A model generated the notes under the pieces. It saw nothing but the letters and a program-made list of their open reading frames with translations. It was not told where the DNA came from and searched no databases. Of a stretch of 64,000 bases of DNA, positions 28,311 through 55,736 are shown piece by piece (positions within the stretch are counted from its first letter, which is position 1; every line of letters begins with the position of its first letter). A program made the position numbers and the translations under genes. Source of the DNA: Lutraria lutraria (taxonomy: Eukaryota; Mollusca; Bivalvia; Venerida; Mactridae); the NCBI GenBank assembly GCA_964023205.1, contig OZ026846.1:32322194-32386193 (forward strand), in the 5' to 3' direction.

Positions 28311-29108
28311 ATGATCAGACAATTTGTCACACTCGAGTATCGAACCAGTGACATTTTTACTGTGCACCCAAGATTGTTGAGCTTGTGTAAGGAAAATGAT
28401 TTATGTATCCTTAATGGTAGATTAGAAGAGGGAAAATGTACTTACAATGGTTTGTATAGAAATACACCTGTAAATAGTTTAGTTGATTATGTAATTACGA
28501 ATCATGAATGTTTTTCTAGTGTATGTAATATGTTTGTATATGATATGACTGAATTCTCGGACCATTGTCCCCTTACTTTTTCTGTTAACTGTGATGATAT
28601 TGATAAAAATAATGTACGTATTTCCGAAACGGAAAAAATTGTTTGGGATAGTAATCGCTCGACCGAATTCTTAAAATCCGTTAAAGAAAATGAACGTTTA
28701 TTTAACGATATAAATGACAGACTAATTCGTGGAGATTACGATGTAAACCAATGTATAAATGAATTTTCGAATCTAGTACATGATATATCAAAAAAATGTT
28801 TCGGTAAAACTTATAAGCCACAATCAAATGGTAAAAAAAGAAAAAGCGCCTGGTTTAATGATAATTGTAGAAGAGCAAAATCTGAACTTTACAATGCTAA
28901 ACGTTGTTTCTTGAAAACAAAAACAAATGAAAATAAAATTCGTTTCTTAGAGTGCAAAAAGATTTATTCTAAAGAGAAACGCTTAGCTAAAAGTATTTAC
29001 TTTAATAAAGAAAAATATAATTTGAAAAAATTAAGTAAAAACTCACCGCGCCAATTTTGGAAGTACATAAACAAGTATCGGAAAACTCGACAAATGACAT
29101 CTCATTAA
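28311..29108 (+). pseudogene. LINE endonuclease C-terminal part, N-truncated and frameshifted
   Basis: The 265-codon frame contains ILNGR, then NSLVDYVITNH and the endonuclease SDH motif (FSDHCPLTF), followed by the basic linker between endonuclease and RT (ending SPRQFWKYINKYRK). The catalytic N-terminal half is absent, and an in-frame TGA sits at 28302-28304. Around 29085-29100 the sequence continues homologously in the -1 frame (NDISLNEFTQYF), so a one-base deletion, or equivalent, has split one ancestral ORF in two. The visible ATG at 28311 is probably fortuitous. Confidence 0.8.
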
Positions 29109-31153
29109 ATGAATTCACTCAATACTTCAAAAATATATCGAACATCGACAATGAACAATTAGCTGATAATAACGAGTTTGAGATCTTGTACGACCACTCG
29201 ATTACTATTGATCAGTTAGATAAACCGATTTCGATCGATGAAATTCAAAAAACAATTTCAACAATGAATCGTCATAAGAGTTGCGACTACGATAATAATG
29301 TAGCGGATTTCTTTATTGATGCAAAGGAATTTGTTTCTCCATTTTTATGCAATATATTTAATCATATTTTTGATAACTGTACTTATCCGGAAGCTTGGAC
29401 TGAAGGTGTTATTGTACCGATATTCAAAAAAGGTTCCAAATCAAATCCTGAAAACTATAGAGGTATCACACTGGTAAATGTATTAGGTAAACTATTTTCA
29501 CTTATTTTACGAAACCGTATCAATAATTGGTGTGAGTGCAACGGTATTTTTAATGAAACTCAATTTGGATTTCGTAATGAGCGTTCTACTGGTGATGCTA
29601 TTTTTATATTACATTCTATTATACAAAAAGTTTTATCGAATAATTCAAAACTATGGTGTGTCTTTATTGACTACAAACGAGCATTTGACTCTGTAAATAG
29701 AGATGCTTTATACTTAAAACTTGTCAATTCTGGCATAAGTTGTAAAATGTCTAATATGATTAAGTGTATTTATAATGTTGTTAAATCATGTGTAAAATTA
29801 CCAAGTACTGGTGAATTGTCAGATTTCTTTGATATTACACTTGGTTTAAAACAAGGAGAGCCATTATCACCTTTATTGTTTATTTTATTTATAAATGATA
29901 TTACTGAAAATGTAGATATTAACTTGTTAACTGCAAGGGATCTTGAGCTTTTATCTATATATTTGATTTTATTTGCTGACGATATTGTCATGTTTACAAC
30001 TGACCCAGGTAGTTTACAATCACAAATAGATAGCATTTCACAATATTCAGAAAAATGGGGTTTAGAAATTAATGTAAAAAAAACTAAAGTTTGTATTTTT
30101 GAAAAACGTAAACAGAATTTTTACCCTGATTTTTTTATAAATGGACAAAAGATCGAAATGGTAGATAATTTTACTTATTTAGGTGTCAATTTTACGAAAA
30201 ATGGAACATTCACCTCTGCTGTAAAAACTTTGCATGACCAAGCTCTGAAGGCGTATAATAACTTATTAACAATTTTTGATTCAGTTCATCTAGATATTAA
30301 ATCGAAATTGTCTCTTTTTGACTCAATGGTATTACCTATCCTTTTATACGGATCTGAAGTTTGGGGTGTGTATAACTTTAAAGATATTGACAATCTACAT
30401 ATCCGTTTTTGTAAATATGTTCTTGGTGTTAAAAAGCAGACCCCAAACAATATTGTCTTAGCTGAATTAGGTAGGCTACCAATATCTGTATTATGTAAAG
30501 AAAGAGCAATAAAATTCTGGCTGAAAATTATGAACAATGTTAACTCCACTATTAATAACGTATATCATGATCTTCAGGTTAATGTTCGTAACTCAAATTG
30601 GGTACGTAAGATTACTTCTATTGTTGATCATCTTGGTTTTGGATATCTACATACAGAATACTCTCAAAATTTTAATTATTTCCCACAAATTAAGCAAAGA
30701 TTACATGATCAGTATATTCAAAATTGGAACAATTCAATCAGTAACATGTCTAAACTCGATCTATACAGAAAATTTAAAAAAGATTATATTTTTGAAGAAT
30801 ATTTAGTTAATATTAGTAACGACGATTTAAGGAAACACTTGACACGTTTACGGCTAGGATCTCATAGACTTGAAATTGAATCGGGAAGATTTAGTAGAAT
30901 AGAAAGAAATAATAGATTCTGTAAAATATGTTATCAAAATGTAATCGAAAATGAATACCACTTTCTACTATGTTGTAGCAAATACAAGGATTTAAGACTT
31001 AAATTTTTGGGACAAATATCATGGCCAAATATTAACAAATTCATCTCTTTTATGTCTAGCAAAAATGTTCGGAAAACAGTAAATATTGCTAAATTCATTA
31101 AACATGCTATGTCCTGTCGCTCAAAATTACTTAACTCTGTACCTGTTTCTTGA
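29057..31153 (+). pseudogene. LINE reverse transcriptase
   Basis: An open frame of 698 codons that begins at TTG, so it is the continuation of the upstream frame, not an independent ORF. RT motifs occur in order: FKKGSKSNPENYRGITLVN, QFGFRNERSTGDA, VFIDYKRAFDSVN, LKQGEPLSPLLF, and the catalytic FADDIVMF near codon 310. Thumb sequence TYLGVNFTKNG and LYGSEVWG follow. The C-terminus carries CKICYQ...EYHFLLCC, a CxxC-H-C zinc-knuckle-like motif. The RT core itself is intact, but the element lacks a working endonuclease and cannot be autonomous. Confidence 0.9.
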
Positions 31154-31202
31154 TTTATCAGATTTATCTTAATAATCCATTTGTTCATATGCTCACTTGA
31201 TG

Positions 31203-31237
31203 GTTTATGTATATGTATATATATATATATATATATG
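31203..31237 (+). repeat. (TA)n microsatellite in the LINE 3' UTR
   Basis: A TATG/TATA run that recurs in units 2-4 near 36230, 41260 and 46285, with the same or almost the same length. Confidence 0.8.
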
Positions 31238-33760
31238 TTTGTCTTTGCCATATTATGTTGTAAATGGCCAAAGGCAATGTATTTTGCTATTTGCCAATAG
31301 ACTTTGAACTTGAACTTGTTGTATTATTGCTAGTCTGCACTGTGTCCAGTATAATAAGACAATCACTATGCTCAGCTTAATTAGTGCTTTTTTGGAAACT
31401 GAGCGATAGGTCAGCTTACCATAGCCTTCACTCGCTTGGCGAGCATGAATTTACTACATTTTTCTACATCCGCCATGCAATTCTTTTAAACCAGTTCCCG
31501 TTCAATCAAAGTTGCCGTGGGCTATGTAAGTTCAGTTTCCGTAAGTACTTTCAGGACTTTGATTACAATCAGCCGCATGATATAAACATCTCACATTAGT
31601 AAATATAAGAAGTTCGTATTAAATACAATGTAGTTATTATTTGTTATAAAACTATGTACATAACGAAACAGCTTCCATGATAAGACAAATTATCTGGAAT
31701 CCCTGTATAGCCTAGGCGTGAGTTCATTAACAAGCCACGCATTGACCATCAATCATATTGCATAATATACCACCACGTGGAAAATTTTATTTTCTTATAT
31801 AAAATTGCATAACCAAATGCTAGAACAAGGCAATTATCGAGGAGTTCTTTGCGAAGTCATACATGTGAGTAATATCGATTATTCTCCGTGACAAAACTTA
31901 GTGTGGAAAGTTCAAACCGACAGAAAAGACTAACAGCGTTAATAAATAGCTGCATAATTATATGTACGTGCTGTTTAGCATCGTTCATCATTTCCAGTGA
32001 ATGCTATCACCCGAGCGGCTTGTCACAACATTACAGGAAAAAGATAAAACAGTTTCGTATTTTTCAAATAATATAATAAAGTAACTGCACATTTGATATG
32101 CTGCGTCAGACATTGACATACCGGGTATTCGGATAATCGGCCGAATAATCAACGTTTTGCTGTAGGTGGAAACAAACTGTTCCGACTTCGGACAGTTCAA
32201 CCAGACTGACTCGACAGAGAAAATCGAAAGAACTAATTTAGAGAGAGAATGAAATTGTATATTGCTATATTGTATACATGCTTTGCATATTTCTCTTTTA
32301 ATCGTACATTTCAATACATATATATTTCTTTTTTAAATATACATATTAGATCATTTTTCAGATACAATGTAGCTATTTTGTGACTTTTTATGGTTATATT
32401 TAATTATGATATAAGCTTATAACAGATGTAAATCTTGTTAGTGATTCTCATGGTATGATATGTAAAAAATATAAGATTTTGTACTATAGATATATTAATT
32501 GTTGTATATTGATTATCTTCCAACCTGATATTCATTTAATCAGGATGACATATGTTTTATACTACAGAATCTGAGATATTTACCCACTTGGATACCTAAA
32601 TAGACGATTTTCACCAAGTCTGCTTTTATACTGGTACCCAAATATTCATAACCAGGATGCAAAGGCTCAAATACTTTGGAGCTAATTCATTAACACGTGC
32701 TCACACTCAGTTAATCTACGTCACCGGACCACCTCAAACTTCACAGTATCGATCCTCTTTGTGAAGATCTTACAATGTGTGCGGTAATCTAAAAGGTGGT
32801 CGAATCCTCAAAACGGCACTAAACACGTAAACTATGTTGTAAGCTTTTGTTTTGTTAAACATTTATTTGTTAAGAACAAATTAACGCATTTTAGTCGGTG
32901 AACGGAAATTTAGCGCTCTTTGTCCACTGTAAAAGTACATCCGAACTGTCATTATTGTATTCGTCCAAGTGTTTTTAAGTTTGCACAATTAATGCTATCA
33001 ATTAATAAAACTGAAGAAATCAACCTAGCTAAGTTTGCCCATCTTGTATTTTCCTCACGTCAGTCTTCCATTGCATGGAACAATTGGGTAACTGTCCGAT
33101 TTATCTTAAATTATACCGTTGGTAAATTTCCTTCCGTCTGCAAATCCAACAGCTAAGGTCTCATGATAATAAAAAATCTATGAAATATTTGATTATTCCC
33201 TTAAAGTGTTATGGAACTACATATTTTGATCCAATCAGGTTTTTTATACAATTTGTATCATGATACTCTCCAATGTAATATCTTTGTCTGATGTTTTGTA
33301 CCTCATTCCTACATTTGTTGTACATGTATATCCATTTTTTGTTCATCCTCAATGAATAATATTTTCTATTTACATATTTATTATCATGTATCTATCTTTC
33401 TTTCCTTTTCCGTTTTTCTTAATATTTTTTTCCCCAATTAAATATATTTTTCACGTGTATGTCATTGTAATTTGCATATGTTTGTAACAAGATACTTTGT
33501 CTATACCAGAACGTCACTTAATAAATTCTGTAATGTTCTTCTGTTATTTGTATTTCGCGGCGTATATAAACGTTTTAATTAACGAAATATTTTGCATTGC
33601 AACAATCTTTAACCGGAGCGCATTTTTACATCGGTCATAAAATCTGTATAATTCACTTTTGCTGAAAAGTACAATGTATGTTGAAAACTGAATCTTCTAT
33701 ATTGTGAATGCTCGGTACATGTCACTTTTCTAATGTTGTATTTGTTAGGGCCTAAGAATG

Positions 33761-33939
33761 TTTGTTTCTGGTTACATGCTCATTTATAAAAGGGGTAGGT
33801 AGGTCGGGGCGTTTTTGTTTGCTCTTGGAAGCATGTAGAAAGGTAAAATAGTGAGAAGATAAATTTTCCGTTCCTCGGGTTGATAACAATCTAGGGTCGC
33901 GGGGAATTATAATGGTAGCTCGGGTAACAATAAACAAAC
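33761..33939. mobile_element. MITE family D in array unit 1
   Basis: Starts TTTGTTTCTGGTTAC and ends GTAACAATAAACAAAC, with GGGGTAGGTAGGTCGGGG inside, the reverse of CCTACC motifs at 7269. Repeated at 38787, 43812 and 48838 by the array. Confidence 0.7.
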
Positions 33940-34029
33940 ACTTTTTTTACGCCCAGCTCTTCAAAACGATAGACAAACGTACACGTCTTCTAAGTGAATG
34001 TATTACAATTACATGTAGATATCTACACG

Positions 34030-34209
34030 TATAGTACAACTTCTCCAGAGCGGACCTCTCATGTGCAACAACCTCCATCCTTCAACAACATGATATTTTC
34101 CAACTGCACGATTTAACTTTTAATTTAACCTCACTAGAGCAACAATCTTTCGACAACAACATACTTTTGCTTCTCCCAAAAGGTGATGCTTTGGAGAGGT
34201 TGCACTGTA
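34030..34209 (+). mobile_element. MITE family B in array unit 1
   Basis: TATAGTACAACTTCTCCAGA at the left and GGAGAGGTTGCACTGTA at the right, same length (180 bp) and order as 10566. Repeated at 39056, 44081 and 49107. Confidence 0.75.
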
Positions 34210-34365
34210 CATAACATAATAATGCTGTGTGAAAGAACAGCTTATACATGTATTTATCGACTGACTTACTTAATTAAGATCAACCTTCATTTTGAAGGTA
34301 TATGCATTGTGAAGTTTGACAAAAATTTTTTCATTTCCATTAACATCCTCATTAAAAAAAATATA

Positions 34366-34543
34366 TAGTCAAACCTGTGAATAAAGGCCCACCCTTAAGG
34401 AAGGCAATGTGTGACCTGTATTGACAGGTGGGCTTTTCCATTCCATTTTGTTCAAATAATCAATCATGATTTTTTTAAATAATGGCCTTTATTCATAGGG
34501 TGGCCTTTATTTGGAGGTGGTCGCTAACACAGGGTTGACTGTA
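34366..34543 (+). mobile_element. MITE family A in array unit 1
   Basis: TATAGTCAAACCTGTG at the left, CACAGGGTTGACTGTA at the right. It abuts a half copy of MITE D (34541-34655), which it may have interrupted. Repeated at 39392, 44417 and 49443. Confidence 0.8.
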
Positions 34544-35327
34544 GTATGTCTTGAAAGTGTGTGGAAAGGTTAAAAGTTACCGTTCCTCGATCCTTAATTA
34601 AGGTCTAGGGGAAAAGTGGGGTAGGTCGGGTGACTAGAAACAAACTTTTTTTTACGCCTTAGCAAATTTTATTGCCACATACATGATACAACTAAATAAC
34701 GCAGTGCATGGTATTGGTTGATCAAAACACAAAGAAAAGCTTTTACAAATAATGACCGGGAACAAATGATTGGAACTTAGGTAAAAGTTAGTTGAAAATC
34801 GACATTGGTACACGAATCAAGTACATGTTAAGCTATTATGAGTAATATTTCGTACTTAAATCCATGTAGTATGTGACTACATTTATATAATTATTTGTAT
34901 GTACGAAGAATAAAACATTTTGTTTTAAATGAACTTAACAAAAAGCAAATCTGCTTGGCAAAAGCCATGACGACAAGTTAGAGATTAATCAGCAACATAA
35001 TGAAAACAACAACAACGTCCCATAATAACATTCAATGTTTCTGTTTCTTTCTTAAAAAAACACCCATTTTGTTGCGTACTTTGATAATTAATACATGTAA
35101 TTATTACATCCTTAATATTGTACTTTTCTGACACATCTACTCAATACTACACAAAAATGTTAATATTACAAAAATAATAGTATTGACCAATTATCATTAT
35201 TTCTTTGAGAGTTACCTCGGATACTTCTATTTATTTTACGACACATTTTTTTAACTTCTGCAAGAGTTGTTGCCCTTGTTGAAAAATATTAATTTCTGTT
35301 AGTGATTTTTTTCCAACATTTTCTCAC

Positions 35328-36179
35328 TCGAAATTGACTCTTTTTGACTCAATGGTATTACCTATCCTTTTATACGGATCTGAAGTTTGGGGTGTGTATA
35401 ACTTTAAAGATATTGACAATCTACATATCCGTTTTTGTAAATATGTTCTTGGTGTTAAAAAGCAGACCCCAAACAATATTGTCTTAGCTGAATTAGGTAG
35501 GCTACCAATATCTGTATTATGTAAAGAAAGAGCAATAAAATTCTGGCTGAAAATTATGAACAATGTTAACTCCACTATTAATAACGTATATCATGATCTT
35601 CAGGTTAATGTTCGTAACTCAAATTGGGTACGTAAGATTACTTCTATTGTTGATCATCTTGGTTTTGGATATCTACATACAGAATACTCTCAAAATTTTA
35701 ATTATTTCCCACAAATTAAGCAAAGATTACATGATCAGTATATTCAAAATTGGAACAATTCAATCAGTAACATGTCTAAACTCGATCTATACAGAAAATT
35801 TAAAAAAGATTATATTTTTGAAGAATATTTAGTTAATATTAGTAACGACGATTTAAGGAAACACTTGACACGTTTACGGCTAGGATCTCATAGACTTGAA
35901 ATTGAATCGGGAAGATTTAGTAGAATAGAAAGAAATAATAGATTCTGTAAAATATGTTATCAAAATGTAATCGAAAATGAATACCACTTTCTACTATGTT
36001 GTAGCAAATACAAGGATTTAAGACTTAAATTTTTGGGACAAATATCATGGCCAAATATTAACAAATTCATCTCTTTTATGTCTAGCAAAAATGTTCGGAA
36101 AACAGTAAATATTGCTAAATTCATTAAACATGCTATGTCCTGTCGCTCAAAATTACTTAACTCTGTACCTGTTTCTTGA
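35328..36179 (+). pseudogene. RT C-terminal fragment, array unit 2
   Basis: Same 281-codon open stretch as the end of the LINE frame (LFDSMVLPILLYG to the TGA after NSVPVS). No catalytic RT motif remains and no ATG stands at the junction (first in-frame ATG about 35352). It is an inert passenger of the array. Confidence 0.9.
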
Positions 36180-39100
36180 TTTATCAGATTTATCTTAATA
36201 ATCCATTTGTTCATATGCTCACTTGATGGTTTATGTATATGTATATATATATATATATATATGTTTGTCTTTGCCATATTATGTTGTAAATGGCCAAAGG
36301 CAATGTATTTTGCTATTTGCCAATAGACTTTGAACTTGAACTTGTTGTATTATTGCTAGTCTGCACTGTGTCCAGTATAATAAGACAATCACTATGCTCA
36401 GCTTAATTAGTGCTTTTTTGGAAACTGAGCGATAGGTCAGCTTACCATAGCCTTCACTCGCTTGGCGAGCATGAATTTACTACATTTTTCTACATCCGCC
36501 ATGCAATTCTTTTAAACCAGTTCCCGTTCAATCAAAGTTGCCGTGGGCTATGTAAGTTCAGTTTCCGTAAGTACTTTCAGGACTTTGATTACAATCAGCC
36601 GCATGATATAAACATCTCACATTAGTAAATATAAGAAGTTCGTATTAAATACAATGTAGTTATTATTTGTTATAAAACTATGTACATAACGAAACAGCTT
36701 CCATGATAAGACAAATTATCTGGAATCCCTGTATAGCCTAGGCGTGAGTTCATTAACAAGCCACGCATTGACCATCAATCATATTGCATAATATACCACC
36801 ACGTGGAAAATTTTATTTTCTTATATAAAATTGCATAACCAAATGCTAGAACAAGGCAATTATCGAGGAGTTCTTTGCGAAGTCATACATGTGAGTAATA
36901 TCGATTATTCTCCGTGACAAAACTTAGTGTGGAAAGTTCAAACCGACAGAAAAGACTAACAGCGTTAATAAATAGCTGCATAATTATATGTACGTGCTGT
37001 TTAGCATCGTTCATCATTTCCAGTGAATGCTATCACCCGAGCGGCTTGTCACAACATTACAGGAAAAAGATAAAACAGTTTCGTATTTTTCAAATAATAT
37101 AATAAAGTAACTGCACATTTGATATGCTGCGTCAGACATTGACATACCGGGTATTCGGATAATCGGCCGAATAATCAACGTTTTGCTGTAGGTGGAAACA
37201 AACTGTTCCGACTTCGGACAGTTCAACCAGACTGACTCGACAGAGAAAATCGAAAGAACTAATTTAGAGAGAGAATGAAATTGTATATTGCTATATTGTA
37301 TACATGCTTTGCATATTTCTCTTTTAATCGTACATTTCAATACATATATATTTCTTTTTTAAATATACATATTAGATCATTTTTCAGATACAATGTAGCT
37401 ATTTTGTGACTTTTTATGGTTATATTTAATTATGATATAAGCTTATAACAGATGTAAATCTTGTTAGTGATTCTCATGGTATGATATGTAAAAAATATAA
37501 GATTTTGTACTATAGATATATTAATTGTTGTATATTGATTATCTTCCAACCTGATATTCATTTAATCAGGATGACATATGTTTTATACTACAGAATCTGA
37601 GATATTTACCCACTTGGATACCTAAATAGACGATTTTCACCAAGTCTGCTTTTATACTGGTACCCAAATATTCATAACCAGGATGCAAAGGCTCAAATAC
37701 TTTGGAGCTAATTCATTAACACGTGCTCACACTCAGTTAATCTACGTCACCGGACCACCTCAAACTTCACAGTATCGATCCTCTTTGTGAAGATCTTACA
37801 ATGTGTGCGGTAATCTAAAAGGTGGTCGAATCCTCAAAACGGCACTAAACACGTAAACTATGTTGTAAGCTTTTGTTTTGTTAAACATTTATTTGTTAAG
37901 AACAAATTAACGCATTTTAGTCGGTGAACGGAAATTTAGCGCTCTTTGTCCACTGTAAAAGTACATCCGAACTGTCATTATTGTATTCGTCCAAGTGTTT
38001 TTAAGTTTGCACAATTAATGCTATCAATTAATAAAACTGAAGAAATCAACCTAGCTAAGTTTGCCCATCTTGTATTTTCCTCACGTCAGTCTTCCATTGC
38101 ATGGAACAATTGGGTAACTGTCCGATTTATCTTAAATTATACCGTTGGTAAATTTCCTTCCGTCTGCAAATCCAACAGCTAAGGTCTCATGATAATAAAA
38201 AATCTATGAAATATTTGATTATTCCCTTAAAGTGTTATGGAACTACATATTTTGATCCAATCAGGTTTTTTATACAATTTGTATCATGATACTCTCCAAT
38301 GTAATATCTTTGTCTGATGTTTTGTACCTCATTCCTACATTTGTTGTACATGTATATCCATTTTTTGTTCATCCTCAATGAATAATATTTTCTATTTACA
38401 TATTTATTATCATGTATCTATCTTTCTTTCCTTTTCCGTTTTTCTTAATATTTTTTTCCCCAATTAAATATATTTTTCACGTGTATGTCATTGTAATTTG
38501 CATATGTTTGTAACAAGATACTTTGTCTATACCAGAACGTCACTTAATAAATTCTGTAATGTTCTTCTGTTATTTGTATTTCGCGGCGTATATAAACGTT
38601 TTAATTAACGAAATATTTTGCATTGCAACAATCTTTAACCGGAGCGCATTTTTACATCGGTCATAAAATCTGTATAATTCACTTTTGCTGAAAAGTACAA
38701 TGTATGTTGAAAACTGAATCTTCTATATTGTGAATGCTCGGTACATGTCACTTTTCTAATGTTGTATTTGTTAGGGCCTAAGAATGTTTGTTTCTGGTTA
38801 CATGCTCATTTATAAAAGGGGTAGGTAGGTCGGGGCGTTTTTGTTTGCTCTTGGAAGCATGTAGAAAGGTAAAATAGTGAGAAGATAAATTTTCCGTTCC
38901 TCGGGTTGATAACAATCTAGGGTCGCGGGGAATTATAATGGTAGCTCGGGTAACAATAAACAAACACTTTTTTTACGCCCAGCTCTTCAAAACGATAGAC
39001 AAACGTACACGTCTTCTAAGTGAATGTATTACAATTACATGTAGATATCTACACGTATAGTACAACTTCTCCAGAGCGGACCTCTCATGTGCAACAACCT

Positions 39101-40353
39101 CCATCCTTCAACAACATGATATTTTCCAACTGCACGATTTAACTTTTAATTTAACCTCACTAGAGCAACAATCTTTCGACAACAACATACTTTTGCTTCT
39201 CCCAAAAGGTGATGCTTTGGAGAGGTTGCACTGTACATAACATAATAATGCTGTGTGAAAGAACAGCTTATACATGTATTTATCGACTGACTTACTTAAT
39301 TAAGATCAACCTTCATTTTGAAGGTATATGCATTGTGAAGTTTGACAAAAATTTTTTCATTTCCATTAACATCCTCATTAAAAAAAATATATAGTCAAAC
39401 CTGTGAATAAAGGCCCACCCTTAAGGAAGGCAATGTGTGACCTGTATTGACAGGTGGGCTTTTCCATTCCATTTTGTTCAAATAATCAATCATGATTTTT
39501 TTAAATAATGGCCTTTATTCATAGGGTGGCCTTTATTTGGAGGTGGTCGCTAACACAGGGTTGACTGTAGTATGTCTTGAAAGTGTGTGGAAAGGTTAAA
39601 AGTTACCGTTCCTCGATCCTTAATTAAGGTCTAGGGGAAAAGTGGGGTAGGTCGGGTGACTAGAAACAAACTTTTTTTTACGCCTTAGCAAATTTTATTG
39701 CCACATACATGATACAACTAAATAACGCAGTGCATGGTATTGGTTGATCAAAACACAAAGAAAAGCTTTTACAAATAATGACCGGGAACAAATGATTGGA
39801 ACTTAGGTAAAAGTTAGTTGAAAATCGACATTGGTACACGAATCAAGTACATGTTAAGCTATTATGAGTAATATTTCGTACTTAAATCCATGTAGTATGT
39901 GACTACATTTATATAATTATTTGTATGTACGAAGAATAAAAAATTTTGTTTTAAATGAACTTAACAAAAAGCAAATCTGCTTGGCAAAAGCCATGACGAC
40001 AAGTTAGAGATTAATCAGCAACATAATGAAAACAACAACAACGTCCCATAATAACATTCAATGTTTCTGTTTCTTTCTTAAAAAAACACCCATTTTGTTG
40101 CGTACTTTGATAATTAATACATGTAATTATTACATCCTTAATATTGTACTTTTCTGACACATCTACTCAATACTACACAAAAATGTTAATATTACAAAAA
40201 TAATAGTATTGACCAATTATCATTATTTCTTTGAGAGTTACCTCGGATACTTCTATTTATTTTACGACACATTTTTTTAACTTCTGCAAGAGTTGTTGCC
40301 CTTGTTGAAAAATATTAATTTCTGTTAGTGATTTTTTTCCAACATTTTCTCAC
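35328..40353 (+). repeat. Array unit 2
   Basis: Same content as unit 1 but joined directly to the end of unit 1 (TTTTCTCAC then TCGAAATTGA). Differs visibly by C to A at about 39940. Confidence 0.95.
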
Positions 40354-41205
40354 TCGAAATTGACTCTTTTTGACTCAATGGTATTACCTATCCTTTTATA
40401 CGGATCTGAAGTTTGGGGTGTGTATAACTTTAAAGATATTGACAATCTACATATCCGTTTTTGTAAATATGTTCTTGGTGTTAAAAAGCAGACCCCAAAC
40501 AATATTGTCTTAGCTGAATTAGGTAGGCTACCAATATCTGTATTATGTAAAGAAAGAGCAATAAAATTCTGGCTGAAAATTATGAACAATGTTAACTCCA
40601 CTATTAATAACGTATATCATGATCTTCAGGTTAATGTTCGTAACTCAAATTGGGTACGTAAGATTACTTCTATTGTTGATCATCTTGGTTTTGGATATCT
40701 ACATACAGAATACTCTCAAAATTTTAATTATTTCCCACAAATTAAGCAAAGATTACATGATCAGTATATTCAAAATTGGAACAATTCAATCAGTAACATG
40801 TCTAAACTCGATCTATACAGAAAATTTAAAAAAGATTATATTTTTGAAGAATATTTAGTTAATATTAGTAACGACGATTTAAGGAAACACTTGACACGTT
40901 TACGGCTAGGATCTCATAGACTTGAAATTGAATCGGGAAGATTTAGTAGAATAGAAAGAAATAATAGATTCTGTAAAATATGTTATCAAAATGTAATCGA
41001 AAATGAATACCACTTTCTACTATGTTGTAGCAAATACAAGGATTTAAGACTTAAATTTTTGGGACAAATATCATGGCCAAATATTAACAAATTCATCTCT
41101 TTTATGTCTAGCAAAAATGTTCGGAAAACAGTAAATATTGCTAAATTCATTAAACATGCTATGTCCTGTCGCTCAAAATTACTTAACTCTGTACCTGTTT
41201 CTTGA
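40354..41205 (+). pseudogene. RT C-terminal fragment, array unit 3
   Basis: Translation identical to the unit 2 fragment; no RT catalytic motif. Confidence 0.9.
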
Positions 41206-44200
41206 TTTATCAGATTTATCTTAATAATCCATTTGTTCATATGCTCACTTGATGGTTTATGTATATGTATATATATATATATATATATGTTTGTCTTTGC
41301 CATATTATGTTGTAAATGGCCAAAGGCAATGTATTTTGCTATTTGCCAATAGACTTTGAACTTGAACTTGTTGTATTATTGCTAGTCTGCACTGTGTCCA
41401 GTATAATAAGACAATCACTATGCTCAGCTTAATTAGTGCTTTTTTGGAAACTGAGCGATAGGTCAGCTTACCATAGCCTTCACTCGCTTGGCGAGCATGA
41501 ATTTACTACATTTTTCTACATCCGCCATGCAATTCTTTTAAACCAGTTCCCGTTCAATCAAAGTTGCCGTGGGCTATGTAAGTTCAGTTTCCGTAAGTAC
41601 TTTCAGGACTTTGATTACAATCAGCCGCATGATATAAACATCTCACATTAGTAAATATAAGAAGTTCGTATTAAATACAATGTAGTTATTATTTGTTATA
41701 AAACTATGTACATAACGAAACAGCTTCCATGATAAGACAAATTATCTGGAATCCCTGTATAGCCTAGGCGTGAGTTCATTAACAAGCCACGCATTGACCA
41801 TCAATCATATTGCATAATATACCACCACGTGGAAAATTTTATTTTCTTATATAAAATTGCATAACCAAATGCTAGAACAAGGCAATTATCGAGGAGTTCT
41901 TTGCGAAGTCATACATGTGAGTAATATCGATTATTCTCCGTGACAAAACTTAGTGTGGAAAGTTCAAACCGACAGAAAAGACTAACAGCGTTAATAAATA
42001 GCTGCATAATTATATGTACGTGCTGTTTAGCATCGTTCATCATTTCCAGTGAATGCTATCACCCGAGCGGCTTGTCACAACATTACAGGAAAAAGATAAA
42101 ACAGTTTCGTATTTTTCAAATAATATAATAAAGTAACTGCACATTTGATATGCTGCGTCAGACATTGACATACCGGGTATTCGGATAATCGGCCGAATAA
42201 TCAACGTTTTGCTGTAGGTGGAAACAAACTGTTCCGACTTCGGACAGTTCAACCAGACTGACTCGACAGAGAAAATCGAAAGAACTAATTTAGAGAGAGA
42301 ATGAAATTGTATATTGCTATATTGTATACATGCTTTGCATATTTCTCTTTTAATCGTACATTTCAATACATATATATTTCTTTTTTAAATATACATATTA
42401 GATCATTTTTCAGATACAATGTAGCTATTTTGTGACTTTTTATGGTTATATTTAATTATGATATAAGCTTATAACAGATGTAAATCTTGTTAGTGATTCT
42501 CATGGTATGATATGTAAAAAATATAAGATTTTGTACTATAGATATATTAATTGTTGTATATTGATTATCTTCCAACCTGATATTCATTTAATCAGGATGA
42601 CATATGTTTTATACTACAGAATCTGAGATATTTACCCACTTGGATACCTAAATAGACGATTTTCACCAAGTCTGCTTTTATACTGGTACCCAAATATTCA
42701 TAACCAGGATGCAAAGGCTCAAATACTTTGGAGCTAATTCATTAACACGTGCTCACACTCAGTTAATCTACGTCACCGGACCACCTCAAACTTCACAGTA
42801 TCGATCCTCTTTGTGAAGATCTTACAATGTGTGCGGTAATCTAAAAGGTGGTCGAATCCTCAAAACGGCACTAAACACGTAAACTATGTTGTAAGCTTTT
42901 GTTTTGTTAAACATTTATTTGTTAAGAACAAATTAACGCATTTTAGTCGGTGAACGGAAATTTAGCGCTCTTTGTCCACTGTAAAAGTACATCCGAACTG
43001 TCATTATTGTATTCGTCCAAGTGTTTTTAAGTTTGCACAATTAATGCTATCAATTAATAAAACTGAAGAAATCAACCTAGCTAAGTTTGCCCATCTTGTA
43101 TTTTCCTCACGTCAGTCTTCCATTGCATGGAACAATTGGGTAACTGTCCGATTTATCTTAAATTATACCGTTGGTAAATTTCCTTCCGTCTGCAAATCCA
43201 ACAGCTAAGGTCTCATGATAATAAAAAATCTATGAAATATTTGATTATTCCCTTAAAGTGTTATGGAACTACATATTTTGATCCAATCAGGTTTTTTATA
43301 CAATTTGTATCATGATACTCTCCAATGTAATATCTTTGTCTGATGTTTTGTACCTCATTCCTACATTTGTTGTACATGTATATCCATTTTTTGTTCATCC
43401 TCAATGAATAATATTTTCTATTTACATATTTATTATCATGTATCTATCTTTCTTTCCTTTTCCGTTTTTCTTAATATTTTTTTCCCAATTAAATATATTT
43501 TTCACGTGTATGTCATTGTAATTTGCATATGTTTGTAACAAGATACTTTGTCTATACCAGAACGTCACTTAATAAATTCTGTAATGTTCTTCTGTTATTT
43601 GTATTTCGCGGCGTATATAAACGTTTTAATTAACGAAATATTTTGCATTGCAACAATCTTTAACCGGAGCGCATTTTTACATCGGTCATAAAATCTGTAT
43701 AATTCACTTTTGCTGAAAAGTACAATGTATGTTGAAAACTGAATCTTCTATATTGTGAATGCTCGGTACATGTCACTTTTCTAATGTTGTATTTGTTAGG
43801 GCCTAAGAATGTTTGTTTCTGGTTACATGCTCATTTATAAAAGGGGTAGGTAGGTCGGGGCGTTTTTGTTTGCTCTTGGAAGCATGTAGAAAGGTAAAAT
43901 AGTGAGAAGATAAATTTTCCGTTCCTCGGGTTGATAACAATCTAGGGTCGCGGGGAATTATAATGGTAGCTCGGGTAACAATAAACAAACACTTTTTTTA
44001 CGCCCAGCTCTTCAAAACGATAGACAAACGTACACGTCTTCTAAGTGAATGTATTACAATTACATGTAGATATCTACACGTATAGTACAACTTCTCCAGA
44101 GCGGACCTCTCATGTGCAACAACCTCCATCCTTCAACAACATGATATTTTCCAACTGCACGATTTAACTTTTAATTTAACCTCACTAGAGCAACAATCTT

Positions 44201-45378
44201 TCGACAACAACATACTTTTGCTTCTCCCAAAAGGTGATGCTTTGGAGAGGTTGCACTGTACATAACATAATAATGCTGTGTGAAAGAACAGCTTATACAT
44301 GTATTTATCGACTGACTTACTTAATTAAGATCAACCTTCATTTTGAAGGTATATGCATTGTGAAGTTTGACAAAAAATTTTTCATTTCCATTAACATCCT
44401 CATTAAAAAAAATATATAGTCAAACCTGTGAATAAAGGCCCACCCTTAAGGAAGGCAATGTGTGACCTGTATTGACAGGTGGGCTTTTCCATTCCATTTT
44501 GTTCAAATAATCAATCATGATTTTTTTAAATAATGGCCTTTATTCATAGGGTGGCCTTTATTTGGAGGTGGTCGCTAACACAGGGTTGACTGTAGTATGT
44601 CTTGAAAGTGTGTGGAAAGGTTAAAAGTTACCGTTCCTCGATCCTTAATTAAGGTCTAGGGGAAAAGTGGGGTAGGTCGGGTGACTAGAAACAAACTTTT
44701 TTTTACGCCTTAGCAAATTTTATTGCCACATACATGATACAACTAAATAACGCAGTGCATGGTATTGGTTGATCAAAACACAAAGAAAAGCTTTTACAAA
44801 TAATGACCGGGAACAAATGATTGGAACTTAGGTAAAAGTTAGTTGAAAATCGACATTGGTACACGAATCAAGTACATGTTAAGCTATTATGAGTAATATT
44901 TCGTACTTAAATCCATGTAGTATGTGACTACATTTATATAATTATTTGTATGTACGAAGAATAAAACATTTTGTTTTAAATGAACTTAACAAAAAGCAAA
45001 TCTGCTTGGCAAAAGCCATGACGACAAGTTAGAGATTAATCAGCAACATAATGAAAACAACAACAACGTCCCATAATAACATTCAATGTTTCTGTTTCTT
45101 TCTTAAAAAAACACCCATTTTGTTGCGTACTTTGATAATTAATACATGTAATTATTACATCCTTAATATTGTACTTTTCTGACACATCTACTCAATACTA
45201 CACAAAAATGTTAATATTACAAAAATAATAGTATTGACCAATTATCATTATTTCTTTGAGAGTTACCTCGGATACTTCTATTTATTTTACGACACATTTT
45301 TTTAACTTCTGCAAGAGTTGTTGCCCTTGTTGAAAAATATTAATTTCTGTTAGTGATTTTTTTCCAACATTTTCTCAC
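40354..45378 (+). repeat. Array unit 3
   Basis: 5,025 bp; one C fewer in the T/C run near 43484 and an A/T difference near 44371 that changes a spurious short frame. Confidence 0.95.
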
Positions 45379-46230
45379 TCGAAATTGACTCTTTTTGACT
45401 CAATGGTATTACCTATCCTTTTATACGGATCTGAAGTTTGGGGTGTGTATAACTTTAAAGATATTGACAATCTACATATCCGTTTTTGTAAATATGTTCT
45501 TGGTGTTAAAAAGCAGACCCCAAACAATATTGTCTTAGCTGAATTAGGTAGGCTACCAATATCTGTATTATGTAAAGAAAGAGCAATAAAATTCTGGCTG
45601 AAAATTATGAACAATGTTAACTCCACTATTAATAACGTATATCATGATCTTCAGGTTAATGTTCGTAACTCAAATTGGGTACGTAAGATTACTTCTATTG
45701 TTGATCATCTTGGTTTTGGATATCTACATACAGAATACTCTCAAAATTTTAATTATTTCCCACAAATTAAGCAAAGATTACATGATCAGTATATTCAAAA
45801 TTGGAACAATTCAATCAGTAACATGTCTAAACTCGATCTATACAGAAAATTTAAAAAAGATTATATTTTTGAAGAATATTTAATTAATATTAGTAACGAC
45901 GATTTAAGGAAACACTTGACACGTTTACGGCTAGGATCTCATAGACTTGAAATTGAATCGGGAAGATTTAGTAGAATAGAAAGAAATAATAGATTCTGTA
46001 AAATATGTTATCAAAATGTAATCGAAAATGAATACCACTTTCTACTATGTTGTAGCAAATACAAGGATTTAAGACTTAAATTTTTGGGACAAATATCATG
46101 GCCAAATATTAACAAATTCATCTCTTTTATGTCTAGCAAAAATGTTCGGAAAACAGTAAATATTGCTAAATTCATTAAACATGCTATGTCCTGTCGCTCA
46201 AAATTACTTAACTCTGTACCTGTTTCTTGA
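45379..46230 (+). pseudogene. RT C-terminal fragment, array unit 4
   Basis: As in units 2 and 3 except one Val to Ile codon (EEYLINIS). No RT catalytic motif. Confidence 0.9.
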
Positions 46231-49200
46231 TTTATCAGATTTATCTTAATAATCCATTTGTTCATATGCTCACTTGATGGTTTATGTATATGTATATATA
46301 TATATATATATATGTTTGTCTTTGCCATATTATGTTGTAAATGGCCAAAGGCAATGTATTTTGCTATTTGCCAATAGACTTTGAACTTGAACTTGTTGTA
46401 TTATTGCTAGTCTGCACTGTGTCCAGTATAATAAGACAATCACTATGCTCAGCTTAATTAGTGCTTTTTTGGAAACTGAGCGATAGGTCAGCTTACCATA
46501 GCCTTCACTCGCTTGGCGAGCATGAATTTACTACATTTTTCTACATCCGCCATGCAATTCTTTTAAACCAGTTCCCGTTCAATCAAAGTTGCCGTGGGCT
46601 ATGTAAGTTCAGTTTCCGTAAGTACTTTCAGGACTTTGATTACAATCAGCCGCATGATATAAACATCTCACATTAGTAAATATAAGAAGTTCGTATTAAA
46701 TACAATGTAGTTATTATTTGTTATAAAACTATGTACATAACGAAACAGCTTCCATGATAAGACAAATTATCTGGAATCCCTGTATAGCCTAGGCGTGAGT
46801 TCATTAACAAGCCACGCATTGACCATCAATCATATTGCATAATATACCACCACGTGGAAAATTTTATTTTCTTATATAAAATTGCATAACCAAATGCTAG
46901 AACAAGGCAATTATCGAGGAGTTCTTTGCGAAGTCATACATGTGAGTAATATCGATTATTCTCCGTGACAAAACTTAGTGTGGAAAGTTCAAACCGACAG
47001 AAAAGACTAACAGCGTTAATAAATAGCTGCATAATTATATGTACGTGCTGTTTAGCATCGTTCATCATTTCCAGTGAATGCTATCACCCGAGCGGCTTGT
47101 CACAACATTACAGGAAAAAGATAAAACAGTTTCGTATTTTTCAAATAATATAATAAAGTAACTGCACATTTGATATGCTGCGTCAGACATTGACATACCG
47201 GGTATTCGGATAATCGGCCGAATAATCAACGTTTTGCTGTAGGTGGAAACAAACTGTTCCGACTTCGGACAGTTCAACCAGACTGACTCGACAGAGAAAA
47301 TCGAAAGAACTAATTTAGAGAGAGAATGAAATTGTATATTGCTATATTGTATACATGCTTTGCATATTTCTCTTTTAATCGTACATTTCAATACATATAT
47401 ATTTCTTTTTTAAATATACATATTAGATCATTTTTCAGATACAATGTAGCTATTTTGTGACTTTTTATGGTTATATTTAATTATGATATAAGCTTATAAC
47501 AGATGTAAATCTTGTTAGTGATTCTCATGGTATGATATGTAAAAAATATAAGATTTTGTACTATAGATATATTAATTGTTGTATATTGATTATCTTCCAA
47601 CCTGATATTCATTTAATCAGGATGACATATGTTTTATACTACAGAATCTGAGATATTTACCCACTTGGATACCTAAATAGACGATTTTCACCAAGTCTGC
47701 TTTTATACTGGTACCCAAATATTCATAACCAGGATGCAAAGGCTCAAATACTTTGGAGCTAATTCATTAACACGTGCTCACACTCAGTTAATCTACGTCA
47801 CCGGACCACCTCAAACTTCACAGTATCGATCCTCTTTGTGAAGATCTTACAATGTGTGCGGTAATCTAAAAGGTGGTCGAATCCTCAAAACGGCACTAAA
47901 CACGTAAACTATGTTGTAAGCTTTTGTTTTGTTAAACATTTATTTGTTAAGAACAAATTAACGCATTTTAGTCGGTGAACGGAAATTTAGCGCTCTTTGT
48001 CCACTGTAAAAGTACATCCGAACTGTCATTATTGTATTCGTCCAAGTGTTTTTAAGTTTGCACAATTAATGCTATCAATTAATAAAACTGAAGAAATCAA
48101 CCTAGCTAAGTTTGCCCATCTTGTATTTTCCTCACGTCAGTCTTCCATTGCATGGAACAATTGGGTAACTGTCCGATTTATCTTAAATTATACCGTTGGT
48201 AAATTTCCTTCCGTCTGCAAATCCAACAGCTAAGGTCTCATGATAATAAAAAATCTATGAAATATTTGATTATTCCCTTAAAGTGTTATGGAACTACATA
48301 TTTTGATCCAATCAGGTTTTTTATACAATTTGTATCATGATACTCTCCAATGTAATATCTTTGTCTGATGTTTTGTACCTCATTCCTACATTTGTTGTAC
48401 ATGTATATCCATTTTTTGTTCATCCTCAATGAATAATATTTTCTATTTACATATTTATTATCATGTATCTATCTTTCTTTCCTTTTCCGTTTTTCTTAAT
48501 ATTTTTTTTCCCAATTAAATATATTTTTCACGTGTATGTCATTGTAATTTGCATATGTTTGTAACAAGATACTTTGTCTATACCAGAACGTCACTTAATA
48601 AATTCTGTAATGTTCTTCTGTTATTTGTATTTCGCGGCGTATATAAACGTTTTAATTAACGAAATATTTTGCATTGCAACAATCTTTAACCGGAGCGCAT
48701 TTTTACATCGGTCATAAAATCTGTATAATTCACTTTTGCTGAAAAGTACAATGTATGTTGAAAACTGAATCTTCTATATTGTGAATGCTCGGTACATGTC
48801 ACTTTTCTAATGTTGTATTTGTTAGGGCCTAAGAATGTTTGTTTCTGGTTACATGCTCATTTATAAAAGGGGTAGGTAGGTCGGGGCGTTTTTGTTTGCT
48901 CTTGGAAGCATGTAGAAAGGTAAAATAGTGAGAAGATAAATTTTCCGTTCCTCGGGTTGATAACAATCTAGGGTCGCGGGGAATTATAATGGTAGCTCGG
49001 GTAACAATAAACAAACACTTTTTTTACGCCCAGCTCTTCAAAACGATAGACAAACGTACACGTCTTCTAAGTGAATGTATTACAATTACATGTAGATATC
49101 TACACGTATAGTACAACTTCTCCAGAGCGGACCTCTCATGTGCAACAACCTCCATCCTTCAACAACATGATATTTTCCAACTGCACGATTTAACTTTTAA

Positions 49201-50404
49201 TTTAACCTCACTAGAGCAACAATCTTTCGACAACAACATACTTTTGCTTTTCCCAAAAGGTGATGCTTTGGAGAGGTTGCACTGTACATAACATAATAAT
49301 GCTGTGTGAAAGAACAGCTTATACATGTATTTATCGACTGACTTACTTAATTAAGATCAACCTTCATTTTGAAGGTATATGCATTGTGAAGTTTGACAAA
49401 AATTTTTTCATTTCCATTAACATCCTCATTAAAAAAAATATATAGTCAAACCTGTGAATAAAGGCCCACCCTTAAGGAAGGCAATGTGTGACCTGTATTG
49501 ACAGGTGGGCTTTTCCATTCCATTTTGTTCAAATAATCAATCATGATTTTTTTAAATAATGGCCTTTATTCATAGGGTGGCCTTTATTTGGAGGTGGTCG
49601 CTAACACAGGGTTGACTGTAGTATGTCTTGAAAGTGTGTGGAAAGGTTAAAAGTTACCGTTCCTCGATCCTTAATTAAGGTCTAGGGGAAAAGTGGGGTA
49701 GGTCGGGTGACTAGAAACAAACTTTTTTTTACGCCTTAGCAAATTTTATTGCCACATACATGATACAACTAAATAACGCAGTGCATGGTATTGGTTGATC
49801 AAAACACAAAGAAAAGCTTTTACAAATAATGACCGGGAACAAATGATTGGAACTTAGGTAAAAGTTAGTTGAAAATCGACATTGGTACACGAATCAAGTA
49901 CATGTTAAGCTATTATGAGTAATATTTCGTACTTAAATCCATGTAGTATGTGACTACATTTATATAATTATTTGTATGTACGAAGAATAAAACATTTTGT
50001 TTTAAATGAACTTAACAAAAAGCAAATCTGCTTGGCAAAAGCCATGACGACAAGTTAGAGATTAATCAGCAACATAATGAAAACAACAACAACGTCCCAT
50101 AATAACATTCAATGTTTCTGTTTCTTTCTTAAAAAAACACCCATTTTGTTGCGTACTTTGATAATTAATACATGTAATTATTACATCCTTAATATTGTAC
50201 TTTTCTGACACATCTACTCAATACTACACAAAAATGTTAATATTACAAAAATAATAGTATTGACCAATTATCATTATTTCTTTGAGAGTTACCTCGGATA
50301 CTTCTATTTATTTTACGACACATTTTTTTAACTTCTGCAAGAGTTGTTGCCCTTGTTGAAAAATATTAATTTCTGTTAGTGATTTTTTTCCAACATTTTC
50401 TCAC
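45379..50404 (+). repeat. Array unit 4 (last)
   Basis: Ends at TTTTCTCAC before unique DNA (TATCCATGCCC). Distinguished by a G to A change near 45882, a T/C change in the run near 48503 and C to T near 49250. Confidence 0.95.
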
Positions 50405-51706
50405 TATCCATGCCCATTAAAATAGGAAATTTAGCGCACCAAATTTCAAATTGGGAATATATAATAACATTTATTTTTATGGAATATGTGATTATTTTAG
50501 TTGTAATAAATATAAATATTATTACACTGTAATTGGTGACAATAGTGTGAAAACTGTTGTATTTTTCTTCTTTTTACATGATCATGCGGAAAACACTTCT
50601 TTTTAGGGGAAAATTCTGACCATTTTAGGGGGAAAATGAAGGAAATTTTACTAGGGGAAACTGCCCATATTCGGCAGTAAATATAGCGAAAAAAATCACT
50701 AACTGTAGATATTACATGGTGACTAAGAAGTTTCTTGATACAGTGCTGGTCACACGAGTTTTCATTGAAAAAAGACGGGTTAACCTTTGAAAAATAGATT
50801 ACTTCGTTCCATAGACTTCAAAGCAATTTTTAAGGGAACATATTTTATAGGAATGTCAGTGTCTTTTAAAAATCTCCTTTTCAAACATCTCCTAATAGGG
50901 TTCTAATACCTTAATTCTCTTTGATAGAATACGTGTATATTAATAACAAAACAATGAATATTTATAGATTTACGTTCGTTTAAATATTTATTGCGAGACT
51001 ACCTTAACTATCAAAGGTCTACAGAATTACAAACAGAAAACTGATACATTTAAAATACATACCTAAGTAAAGTTATTTATATCCTGGTGTGTTGTATTCA
51101 AAATTAAATCAATACTTTTCTTATACATTTATCAGTAGTGCATGAAGTTAAAAAATGTATATACTATGGATATACAAATAAATATACAATGTATATACAT
51201 GTATGTACTTGTATACAACATCATTAAAAAAAAGCTTAAAACGATTTAATATCACTAGTTAACAATGTCATACACGTACAAGCTTGTATAGAGTCTAGTT
51301 ATCTAACTAAAAAATGCTGGCTTAATAGGCGATTACAACATTTTGTACACAAACAAATTTTAGGGTTTATTTAAATCGATCAATGCTATTGTTCTATGTA
51401 ACGCGTCGACCCGATCGATCTGATTACACTGTTTGTATTCTGTTCAATTGATCTTGAAAAAATCGTATGTTAAACTTCATGTCGAAACTCCCAACCCGGT
51501 TTGATAAGCATTAGACTTACTACTTCGTGTGAATTCTTTGATAAATTTTATGTTTAAATTGCTACTTTTGTTTGTACGCTCGTGATTGCAATTTACCGAA
51601 AATTCAACCGATATTGATTGAAATTTACGATTACGTCGAACATATGCTATACTTGCCATAACTGAAGGTAGTGATAAGAACTACATGTACATGTATATGC
51701 GGAATC
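50405..51706. other. Unique DNA between the array and the beta-propeller gene
   Basis: AT-rich; no coding exon recognised. A stretch at 50605-50680 is rich in AGGGGAAA words (AGGGGAAAATT, AGGGGGAAAATG, AGGGGAAACTG), a possible degenerate repeat. The promoter of the next gene should lie here but no element can be named. Confidence 0.4.
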
Positions 51707-52597
51707 ATGGGACATAACGTATCTTCAACTAAAAACTCGGTTCAAATAATACCCGAACGGAATGTGGATTCTAACATTAATAAAGCGAATAAAAACAAAT
51801 CGAAGGAAAATGAAAGTAGGAAGAATGTATTTAAAAGCTGTTTACAACGGAACGTCAAGAGCCCGGAAGACAGTAGAATATGTGATATCAGTGGCTGTTA
51901 TGTTTCAGAACAATCAGTGATTGTGGTAACGGATTTTACTAACAAAAAATTGAAGAAATGTAACAAGAAACATACTGTTATAACTCTAGATTTGCCGTGT
52001 TCTCCAATGGATGTATGTAACCTAGCAGGCAATACCAATGAAGTGGTTGTTTGTGGCGAGTGCATGCTTTGTTTTGTGAATATTTCGGGAAAGATGAAAA
52101 TTACCAGAACTGTTAACTTGAACCACAAGTGTCACGGGATCGCTTGCCACGATAACAAATTATACATTGTTGATGACGATACAGCATACGTGTACACATT
52201 AAATGATGACGTAGAACGCATCTTATTTAAACATGATTCAGCAGCAACGAGGTTTTGCCATGTCAAAGTTAACGACAAAGGTAGTCTTATTTATATTTCT
52301 GATGAAATGTCAGGCGTGTATACAGTGCATGCATCTGGTAACTTGGTGTCGGTTTATTACGATGACGAATTGAAAGAAGCCCAGGGTGTTTGTGTATTGG
52401 ATAATGGGCATGTGTTAGTCAGTGGATTTCAATCTGATAATGTCATTGAAGTGGACGAAAATGGAAGTAAGAAGATACAAACCATCATTCAAGATGACGG
52501 ACATATCACTGATCCGAAATGTTTGTATTTTAATAAACATACAAATGAATTGTATGTTGGACAATGGAATGATATGATTTTAATCTTCAAGTTATGA
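51707..52597 (+). CDS. Orphan NHL/TRIM-type beta-propeller protein, single exon
   Basis: 296 codons from ATG 51707 (AATCATGGGA, good context) to TGA; the open frame extends 12 codons upstream only through a GTG. Residues 1-55 are polar and Lys/Asn-rich (NKANKNKSKENESRKN), probably disordered. From about residue 60 there are six-bladed-propeller-like repeats with strand patterns such as SVIVVTDFTNKKLKKC, KLYIVDDDTAYVYTL, SLIYISDEMSGVYTV, HVLVSGFQSDNVIEV and ELYVGQWNDMILIF. This arrangement is that of the C-terminal propeller of the large TRIM2/3/56-like families of molluscs. No RING, B-box or coiled coil precedes it and no splice acceptor near the start was identified, so it may be a RBCC-less paralogue or a retrogene. 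The role, perhaps ligand or RNA binding, is unknown. Confidence 0.75.
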   Translation: MGHNVSSTKNSVQIIPERNVDSNINKANKNKSKENESRKNVFKSCLQRNVKSPEDSRICDISGCYVSEQSVIVVTDFTNKKLKKCNKKHTVITLDLPCSPMDVCNLAGNTNEVVVCGECMLCFVNISGKMKITRTVNLNHKCHGIACHDNKLYIVDDDTAYVYTLNDDVERILFKHDSAATRFCHVKVNDKGSLIYISDEMSGVYTVHASGNLVSVYYDDELKEAQGVCVLDNGHVLVSGFQSDNVIEVDENGSKKIQTIIQDDGHITDPKCLYFNKHTNELYVGQWNDMILIFKL

Positions 52598-53431: not shown

Positions 53432-54132
53432 TTTTTACCCTGATTTTTATAAGTGGACAGACAATCGAAATACATTATGTAGTAGATAAACTTGAATTTT
53501 GAACATTCACGGCTGCTGAGACCAAACTCTTTAGGCGTATAGTAACTTATTAAATTGTCTCTTTTTGATTCAATGGTATTATCAGAACTTCAATTATTTT
53601 CCATTAATTAAATAAAGATTACATAATCAATGTATTCAAAATTCGAAAATCCAAACAGTTATATGTCTAAACTCGATCTTTATAGAAAAATTAAAAAGAT
53701 TATACTTTTGAAGAGCATTTAGTAAATGTTAGTAACGACGATTTAAGGAAACACTTAACACGTTTACGTCTAGGATCTCATAGACTTGAAATAGAATCGG
53801 GAAGATATTATAGAAACGAACGGAACAATAGACACTGTCACCACTTTGTTTTATGTTGTATCCAATAAAATGATACAAGACTTTAAGTTCAGGGTCAAAT
53901 ATCTTGACCAAGTATAAACAAATTTATCCATTTATGTTTAGCAAAATTTGTAGGAGAACAGTAAATATTCGTAATTTTATCAAACATGCTGTGTCTCGTC
54001 GCTCAAATCCACATAACACTGTAGCTGTTCCGGTTATGTAATTGATCTGTTTGTTTTTGCCATATTAAATATGTTATAAATGGCCAAAGGAAATGTACTT
54101 TGCTATTTGCCAATTGATATTTGAACTTGTTG
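53432..54132 (+). mobile_element. Decayed LINE copy of the same family with internal deletions
   Basis: Segments match the LINE in order: TTTTTACCCTGATTTTTAT (LINE 30118), CTCTTTTTGATTCAATGGTA (30312), then, after a deletion, AACTTCAATTATTTTCC (30670), ACGATTTAAGGAAACACTTA (30825), and the tail AAATGGCCAAAGG ... TGCTATTTGCCAATTG. Frames are broken. It is clearly older than the array copies. Confidence 0.85.
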
Positions 54133-55736
54133 ATTGCTGTTTTCTTTATGACTTAATTATGTTAATGTTCTAATTACAACATATTAAAAATGCAAGTGTT
54201 TTCGCAACATTGGCTACATGCACATTTGTAGTTGTTCATTCTTTTCGTTAATGTGTATTCAAAGTCTCAGCCAGATTTGGATTTACATGTACATTATTTC
54301 TATATGATAAATTTGTGATAAAAACGAATTAACTCAGTACGCTTAACACAGCACAAAAACTCAGCACTCAAATCTCAGTTATAAAGACATCATCGTTTTG
54401 TGCTTTGCCTGCAATACGATAAGCGATTTCTAGACTATTGTCGATTACTTAGAATAAGGCTCGAACTCAGTCACATGGCGTTAAAGTCTAACCGTTCTAT
54501 TGGACTGTATAGTGGAATATAGTTGAAAATATTCTTGAATATAGAAATCTTCCCCACAAAATCATCAACCCAAAACCAACGCAACACAATCGAGCATAAA
54601 AACCGAAGGATAGGACAGAGTCTCTTAGGGTACCTTAGCAAAACGACAGGGGATGTACACTAGTTTTAGGGTCCCAACCACATACTTTATCGGTCATTTT
54701 ATTACGTTCCTACATATTTTCAGCAAATCTTGTCACCGCTCTCTGTTAAAAAAACTGATATTTTTGCACGTTACTGTCATCATTTTGACATTATACAGCT
54801 ACAGTATAAATGTCCAGAAGTTTAACTTGGGCTGAAAAAATATTCTAGTTACACCATGGGCCTAGTTTCTTAATGTTTTATCTCTGCAAGGATGCCTTTC
54901 TTTAAATGCAGTGGGAGCCTTTCTTTAAATGCAGTCTATATACTTTTCATCTCTTCATATTTATCATATGTTATGTTATTTTACTCGTTGTTTACAAGTT
55001 TTAGTATGAAATGAACACACGAATGTGTGGTATTTACACTAATATAGGCCTTCTAATTGTTTAACTCGTATTCAGGATTTCCTGATTTTTTCCCAACGAA
55101 GTTTGTGCTTTATCTCAATACTTAAGCATAATATTTATTGTGTTTGTCCATTCTATTCGCCACTTTTCTGTATTTTTGGTCATCTTTACATTGTTTAATT
55201 CTGTTCTTAATTTTCTTGTATCCGTCACCATGTTTAATAACGAACGTGCTACTTCCCTGTGCCTGAGTCACCACTTCGTTCACCCAGGAATTTTTGTTGG
55301 AAGAATCCTTTCCAAATGTGGCACCGCGCTTTGTACGCGTTACCTCTTATTTAGTCTTCGGCAAATCGTCAGTTATTGCGTTACGTTATTTTAATTAATA
55401 TTTTCTTTCGTGAAAAATCATCAACTAAAATAACCAAATCCTGATTCATACTTACTTGTTGCGAAATAAATTGGCGTTGAATTGTTTGAGGCAGAATCGA
55501 CATTTATCTCCTTACTCTTTTAGACTACCGTTCTAAAATTAGCGATATAGGAACCATCTCCATTTATTTAGAATGACAATCCCGCATAAAAGCAAAAATG
55601 TCACCATAAAGAAAACTGTGAAAACAGTGAATAATAAAACGACCTCGCGGAGACGTTGCTTCTTAGTGTAGAGTCAAACTTTCCACAGACAGTAGCTTTT
55701 GATAACCAACCATCACTAAAGATCGAATCGGGAAAA
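54133..55736. other. Intergenic DNA upstream of the C2-domain gene
   Basis: AT-rich. A tRNA-like B box (GAGTTCGAGCC, minus strand) at 54469-54479 hints at a SINE relic. A direct repeat GGGAGCCTTTCTTTAAATGCAG follows TGCCTTTCTTTAAATGCAG at about 54890-54932. No gene is seen. Confidence 0.4.

Follow-up and report, generated by a model that had tools for sequence, protein, structure and literature searches.

The tandem array described here is most plausibly a tandem segmental duplication at a single locus, which was founded by a nonhomologous joining and later expanded to four units, and we assign this reading a probability of roughly 85%. It is located in a stretch of 64,000 nucleotides (C15:32322194-32386193, hereafter the window, to which all positions refer unless a contig is named) of the Lutraria lutraria assembly; the genome searched was this assembly, whose 71 contigs total 728.5 Mb. 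Adjacent head-to-tail copies have a novel junction in common, and the left edge of the array proved to be native sequence in 11 of 11 LINE loci. The locus has the look of an ordinary tandem duplication of recent date and not of a novel type of element.

Structure of the array and variation among units

Self-comparison and alignment of the units revealed four head-to-tail units at 30302-50404 with 99.9% identity, and 30302-45379 set against 35328-50405 was 99.94% identical over 15,079 columns. Matching of the array region was highest at a lag of 5026 (76.5%), followed by 5025 (53.2%), and stayed at about 28-30% at every other lag in the range 5015-5039; the signal at 5025 arises because one unit is one base short. 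Number and orientation of the units accordingly agree with the earlier note, which had described four head-to-tail units of 5,026 bp, but one of them measures 5025 bp (Table 1). Its statement that only few differences separate them was borne out by six variable columns in the four-unit alignment (unit positions 10, 505, 3131, 3872, 4025 and 4615). At position 10 unit 1 has T where units 2-4 have A, and in the remaining columns every change is confined to a single unit, column 3131 being altered in two different ways; private changes amount to 6 per 20,103 bp. Three of the six columns lie in error-prone contexts, as 3131 and 4025 mark the edges of homopolymers and 4615 is next to an A-run.

Near-identical units of 5 kb are a known difficulty for assemblers, and it might be supposed that a single unit was repeated, or a shorter array mis-sized, during assembly. 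We consider such an artefact improbable. The near-identity itself and the contact of three variable columns with homopolymer runs would suit it, as would the restriction of all changes except that at position 10 to single units, but units 2, 3 and 4 each possess changes of their own, six in total. The longest exact repeat inside the array is 4604 bp and the longest stretch free of a unit-specific mark about 9.6 kb (30311 to 39942), so that reads of at least about 10 kb, a common length for long reads, could tile the array. In addition, the stretch tested in the right flank, a frame at 51671-52597, occurs once in the assembly, hence this flank is not duplicated and a second contig with the other haplotype is absent there; and the unit core (32000-33500) was found near-identical at the four places of the array only (40 scored of 283 candidates).

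Table 1. Features of the array and its surroundings (window positions).
Feature	Position	Strand	Remarks
5'-truncated LINE copy, native left anchor of the array	28374..31319	+	Limits are family match ends; RVT_1 E 3.8e-35
LINE reading frame, 698 aa	29057..31153	+	RVT_1 spans residues 126-379; codon 416 marks the array border
Unit 1	30302..35327	+	5026 bp; position 10 is T (ancestral); zero private changes
End of old dispersed repeat	35128..35300	+	Copies elsewhere 82-85%; stops 27-40 bp short of the right breakpoint
Junction of units 1 and 2 (35327|35328) and nearby derived A (35337)	35318..35337	+	Repeated at 40353|40354 and 45378|45379
Unit 2	35328..40353	+	5026 bp; 1 private change (39942)
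Unit 3	40354..45378	+	5025 bp; 2 private changes (1-base deletion at ~43483, and 44377)
Unit 4	45379..50404	+	5026 bp; 3 private changes (45883, 48509, 49250)
Old, decayed LINE copy, same type as the left anchor	53474..54138	+	3 kb right of the array, outside it

The LINE copy and the two borders

The 5' limit of the LINE copy holding the left border was set where the matches of four loci (L010, L011, L013, L019) all stop, at 28374, and family matches end on the 3' side at about 31312-31334, mostly at 31318-31320. Its alignment starts at about residue 200 of the relatives P0007 and P0009, both of which contain PF03372, a domain that Pfam did not report in the copy of the window, and a frame break is present near 29080. 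Among the best 120 of 1041 protein relatives, few of which are named, are two proteins of Mercenaria mercenaria as well as three named from bacterial MAGs of Candidatus Thiodiazotropha and Sedimenticola, the latter presumably representing host contamination.

The LINE family has at least 46 matches in the assembly (40 of 1365 candidates scored), and 12 loci were extracted: that of the window and 11 others (L010-L020). In all 11 the border is crossed without interruption and T is found at unit position 10; at the protein level the frame is likewise continuous across 30302 in four of four relatives tried (P0002, P0009, the clam protein P0060 and, to 30835, P0007). Unit 1 is therefore native LINE at its left edge, the copies resulting from the joining of 35327 back to 30302, and the A of units 2-4 is the derived state. 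Some LINE copies among the matches listed stop short of the border because they are truncated or, in the case of C10, because an insertion splits the copy 24 bp from it. A breakage hot spot near the border was considered but is not claimed, as the C10 copy broken 24 bp from the border position (L041, C10:37863800-37869500) holds an insertion of 3.3 kb. The two pieces of this same-family LINE overlap by 2 bp, the length that a transposon with a TA target would leave.

The border had previously been placed in the middle of a reverse-transcriptase frame; it does fall inside the LINE reading frame, but beyond RVT_1 (residue 416 versus 126-379). From there the unit reaches about 4.0 kb past the 3' end of the LINE, as had been claimed, and about 80% of it (everything except 30302-31319) is non-LINE. 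At its right end lies the old dispersed repeat, which stops before the breakpoint, and hence neither border is homologous to the other: what they have in common is 1 bp, the T at 35328/50405. A first duplication by homologous recombination between two LINE copies, to which the related fragment downstream in the same orientation (53474-54138) might point, is thus very hard to sustain, since 3 kb separate that fragment from the array, the right border is non-LINE, and with 1 bp of homology and LINE sequence at one border only the explanation fails for the first event. The description of the array as seeded inside a retrotransposon consequently holds for its location, but the LINE is not supported as its cause and is probably a bystander that happened to hold the left breakpoint.

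At the array ends the target duplication has a length of 0, and the best inverted repeat reached 47% over at least 15 bp, a value that 747 of 1000 random pairs attained or exceeded. Together with the left border being native in 11/11 loci, this agrees with the earlier view that the unit is not a transposon. A transposon would have two insertion edges and copies elsewhere, and membership in this class was rejected: the left edge is native and there were no near-identical copies elsewhere among the candidates scored. Helitrons, which are rolling-circle transposons, start with TC, end with CTRR and sit between A and T. The unit does begin with TC and the array is flanked by A and T, but the unit ends in CTCAC, the LINE is unbroken over the left border in 11/11 loci, so that this border is not an insertion edge, and the candidates scored included neither a near-identical core nor the junction at any other place; that a Helitron making tandem copies of itself produced the array can practically be dismissed. 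Folding of 100-bp stretches resembled that of shuffled sequences (z 0.14 at the left border, 0.17 at the right border and -0.42 at the junction), hence hairpins at the breakpoints are unsupported. The junction also opens a stop-to-stop frame of 298 aa (35283-36179), in which 15 other residues are fused to the C-terminal part of the LINE and which is most likely meaningless.

Origin, expansion and relative age

A 400-bp query across the junction gave three full matches in the 728-Mb assembly, all inside the array (40 scored of 2073 candidates), and this restriction, along with the 6 private changes per 20,103 bp, upheld the view of a young segmental amplification. The derived T>A change sits 10 bp from the new junction, is common to units 2-4 and is absent from unit 1 and the 11 LINE loci; therefore the junction arose once and was then multiplied.

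A young LINE copy was already present in the chromosome when the duplication occurred. Position 35327 would then have been joined to 30302 with 0-1 bp of homology, through a break or a switch of template, for which end joining or microhomology-mediated replication may have been the pathway to the junction observed. The T>A change that units 2-4 share probably arose at or soon after the joining. Finally, two units would have become four by exchange between the 5-kb repeats or by rolling-circle copying of an excised circle, every added unit carrying the identical junction and the identical A.

As a variant of this explanation, the 5-kb segment could have been excised as a circle, copied to a multimer and brought back by homologous recombination to the site it came from, instead of being multiplied by stepwise unequal exchange. 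We regard this as possible, with the odds rather against it: no change is common to just two of units 2-4, all private changes being singletons as simultaneous copying predicts, and the common A stands beside all three junctions, but with six private changes the star-like pattern is weak and stepwise exchange predicts nearly the same. Six changes are too few, and so unequal exchange and rolling-circle copying are indistinguishable. Under either course, the preferred reading of one nonhomologous joining with subsequent expansion is retained.

More speculatively, the joining may itself have been mutagenic, the T>A change stemming from error-prone repair or replication at the duplication, and the locus may stand at the onset of macrosatellite growth and be polymorphic in the population, which we hold to be somewhat doubtful. 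For any one site, the chance of lying no more than 10 bp from a unit edge is about 0.4% (20/5026), a value to be read with the fact that the position was noticed post hoc and with six variable columns to choose from. In yeast, mutation was reported to be raised in DNA flanking microhomology joins (PMC5413072), and the cases described there are only loosely comparable as they involve kilobase distances and 15-bp homology.

Concerning age, substitutions private to this LINE copy number 3 in the 2319 columns for which five or more other copies are present (at most 11 loci compared), against the 6 private changes in 20,103 bp between units. Two of them, 30917 and 30932, fall inside the unit and outside its variable columns; being invariant among the units, they are older than the amplification. 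The array thus postdates the LINE insertion, and by these small counts it is perhaps several-fold younger.

Gene content, other repeats and known systems

Of 25 stop-to-stop frames of at least 50 aa, 18 lie entirely or for the most part beyond the LINE portion of the unit; compared with Pfam, none of these matched at the cut-off (weak hits were Cin1_N 0.0092, DUF4306 0.028 and SPRING1 0.07). No gene was thus recognised as a target of the amplification, exons below 50 aa escaping such a scan. Since the non-LINE part shows no recognisable gene, we propose no function other than a change in copy number that has no known effect. The window yielded no Rfam match at gathering thresholds and no tRNA with ARAGORN. 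A KY-like protein at 60813-61898 is 55% identical to a protein of Mercenaria and 34% identical to one of Ruditapes, with no match among solved structures, and for the 658-aa frame at 55656-57632 no match turned up among proteins. On visual inspection, an exon on the minus strand begins near 27140 with what resembles a signal peptide, heading away from the array.

As a base rate, admittedly thin with one block of 200 kb, C1:10.0-10.2 Mb contained 31 direct-repeat pairs (at least 200 bp, at least 90%) and no array at 99% whose units measured at least 1 kb. The repeats consisted of short-period minisatellites and of a duplicated block of 90-97% at 22-25 kb spacing, direct in orientation and located at block positions 152270-162144 and 177557-184193 (L021-L040 joined). 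On C32, four equal-scoring matches of a repeat piece (positions 16617, 43363, 73502 and 100248) are spaced by 26746, 30139 and 26746, which suggests that this other contig bears a further tandem array of much greater length. Two LINE pieces of 83% on the same strand of C12 (6960047-6960253 and 6962795-6963001), 2.7 kb apart, are perhaps an older tandem duplication. Within the window, an 81-bp unit forms a tandem pair at 12489-12645 (1.9 copies, 100% matches).

Macrosatellites are long arrays of kilobase units, usually in tens of copies, and the term, which the earlier note had offered for the array, was overstated for four units at one locus, with the near-identical core at four places and the full junction at three, all inside the array among the candidates scored. 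The closest resemblance in structure is to nonrecurrent tandem duplications and multicopy tandem CNVs, such as a head-to-tail duplication and triplication with microhomology described in human stem cells (PMC8165465) and replication-based segmental duplications described in yeast (PMC2518615). These likewise display head-to-tail copies, a repeated junction and little or no junction homology, whereas the cases given there comprise two or three large copies and the clam array four units of 5 kb. In the transmissible cancer of the soft-shell clam, tandem duplications with a mode of about 11 kb were reported (PMC10663159); they, too, are tandem duplications in a bivalve and of a size of the same order, but those described are somatic variants of a cancer, and there is no indication of a tumour for the present array. 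Satellite DNAs with LINE parts have been reviewed in general (PMC12628747), and the chicken HinfI satellite is reported to contain part of CR1 ORF2 (PMC9659126), so that tandem units with a 3' part of LINE ORF2 occur there as well as here; in contrast to such satellites, the present array has four units at one place, largely of non-LINE sequence.

Views on genome evolution are left unchanged by this locus. It offers a clean example of the birth of an array, with one nonhomologous junction and a nearby mutation that were then multiplied, all after the LINE insertion, and it could be used to test how arrays grow in a bivalve.
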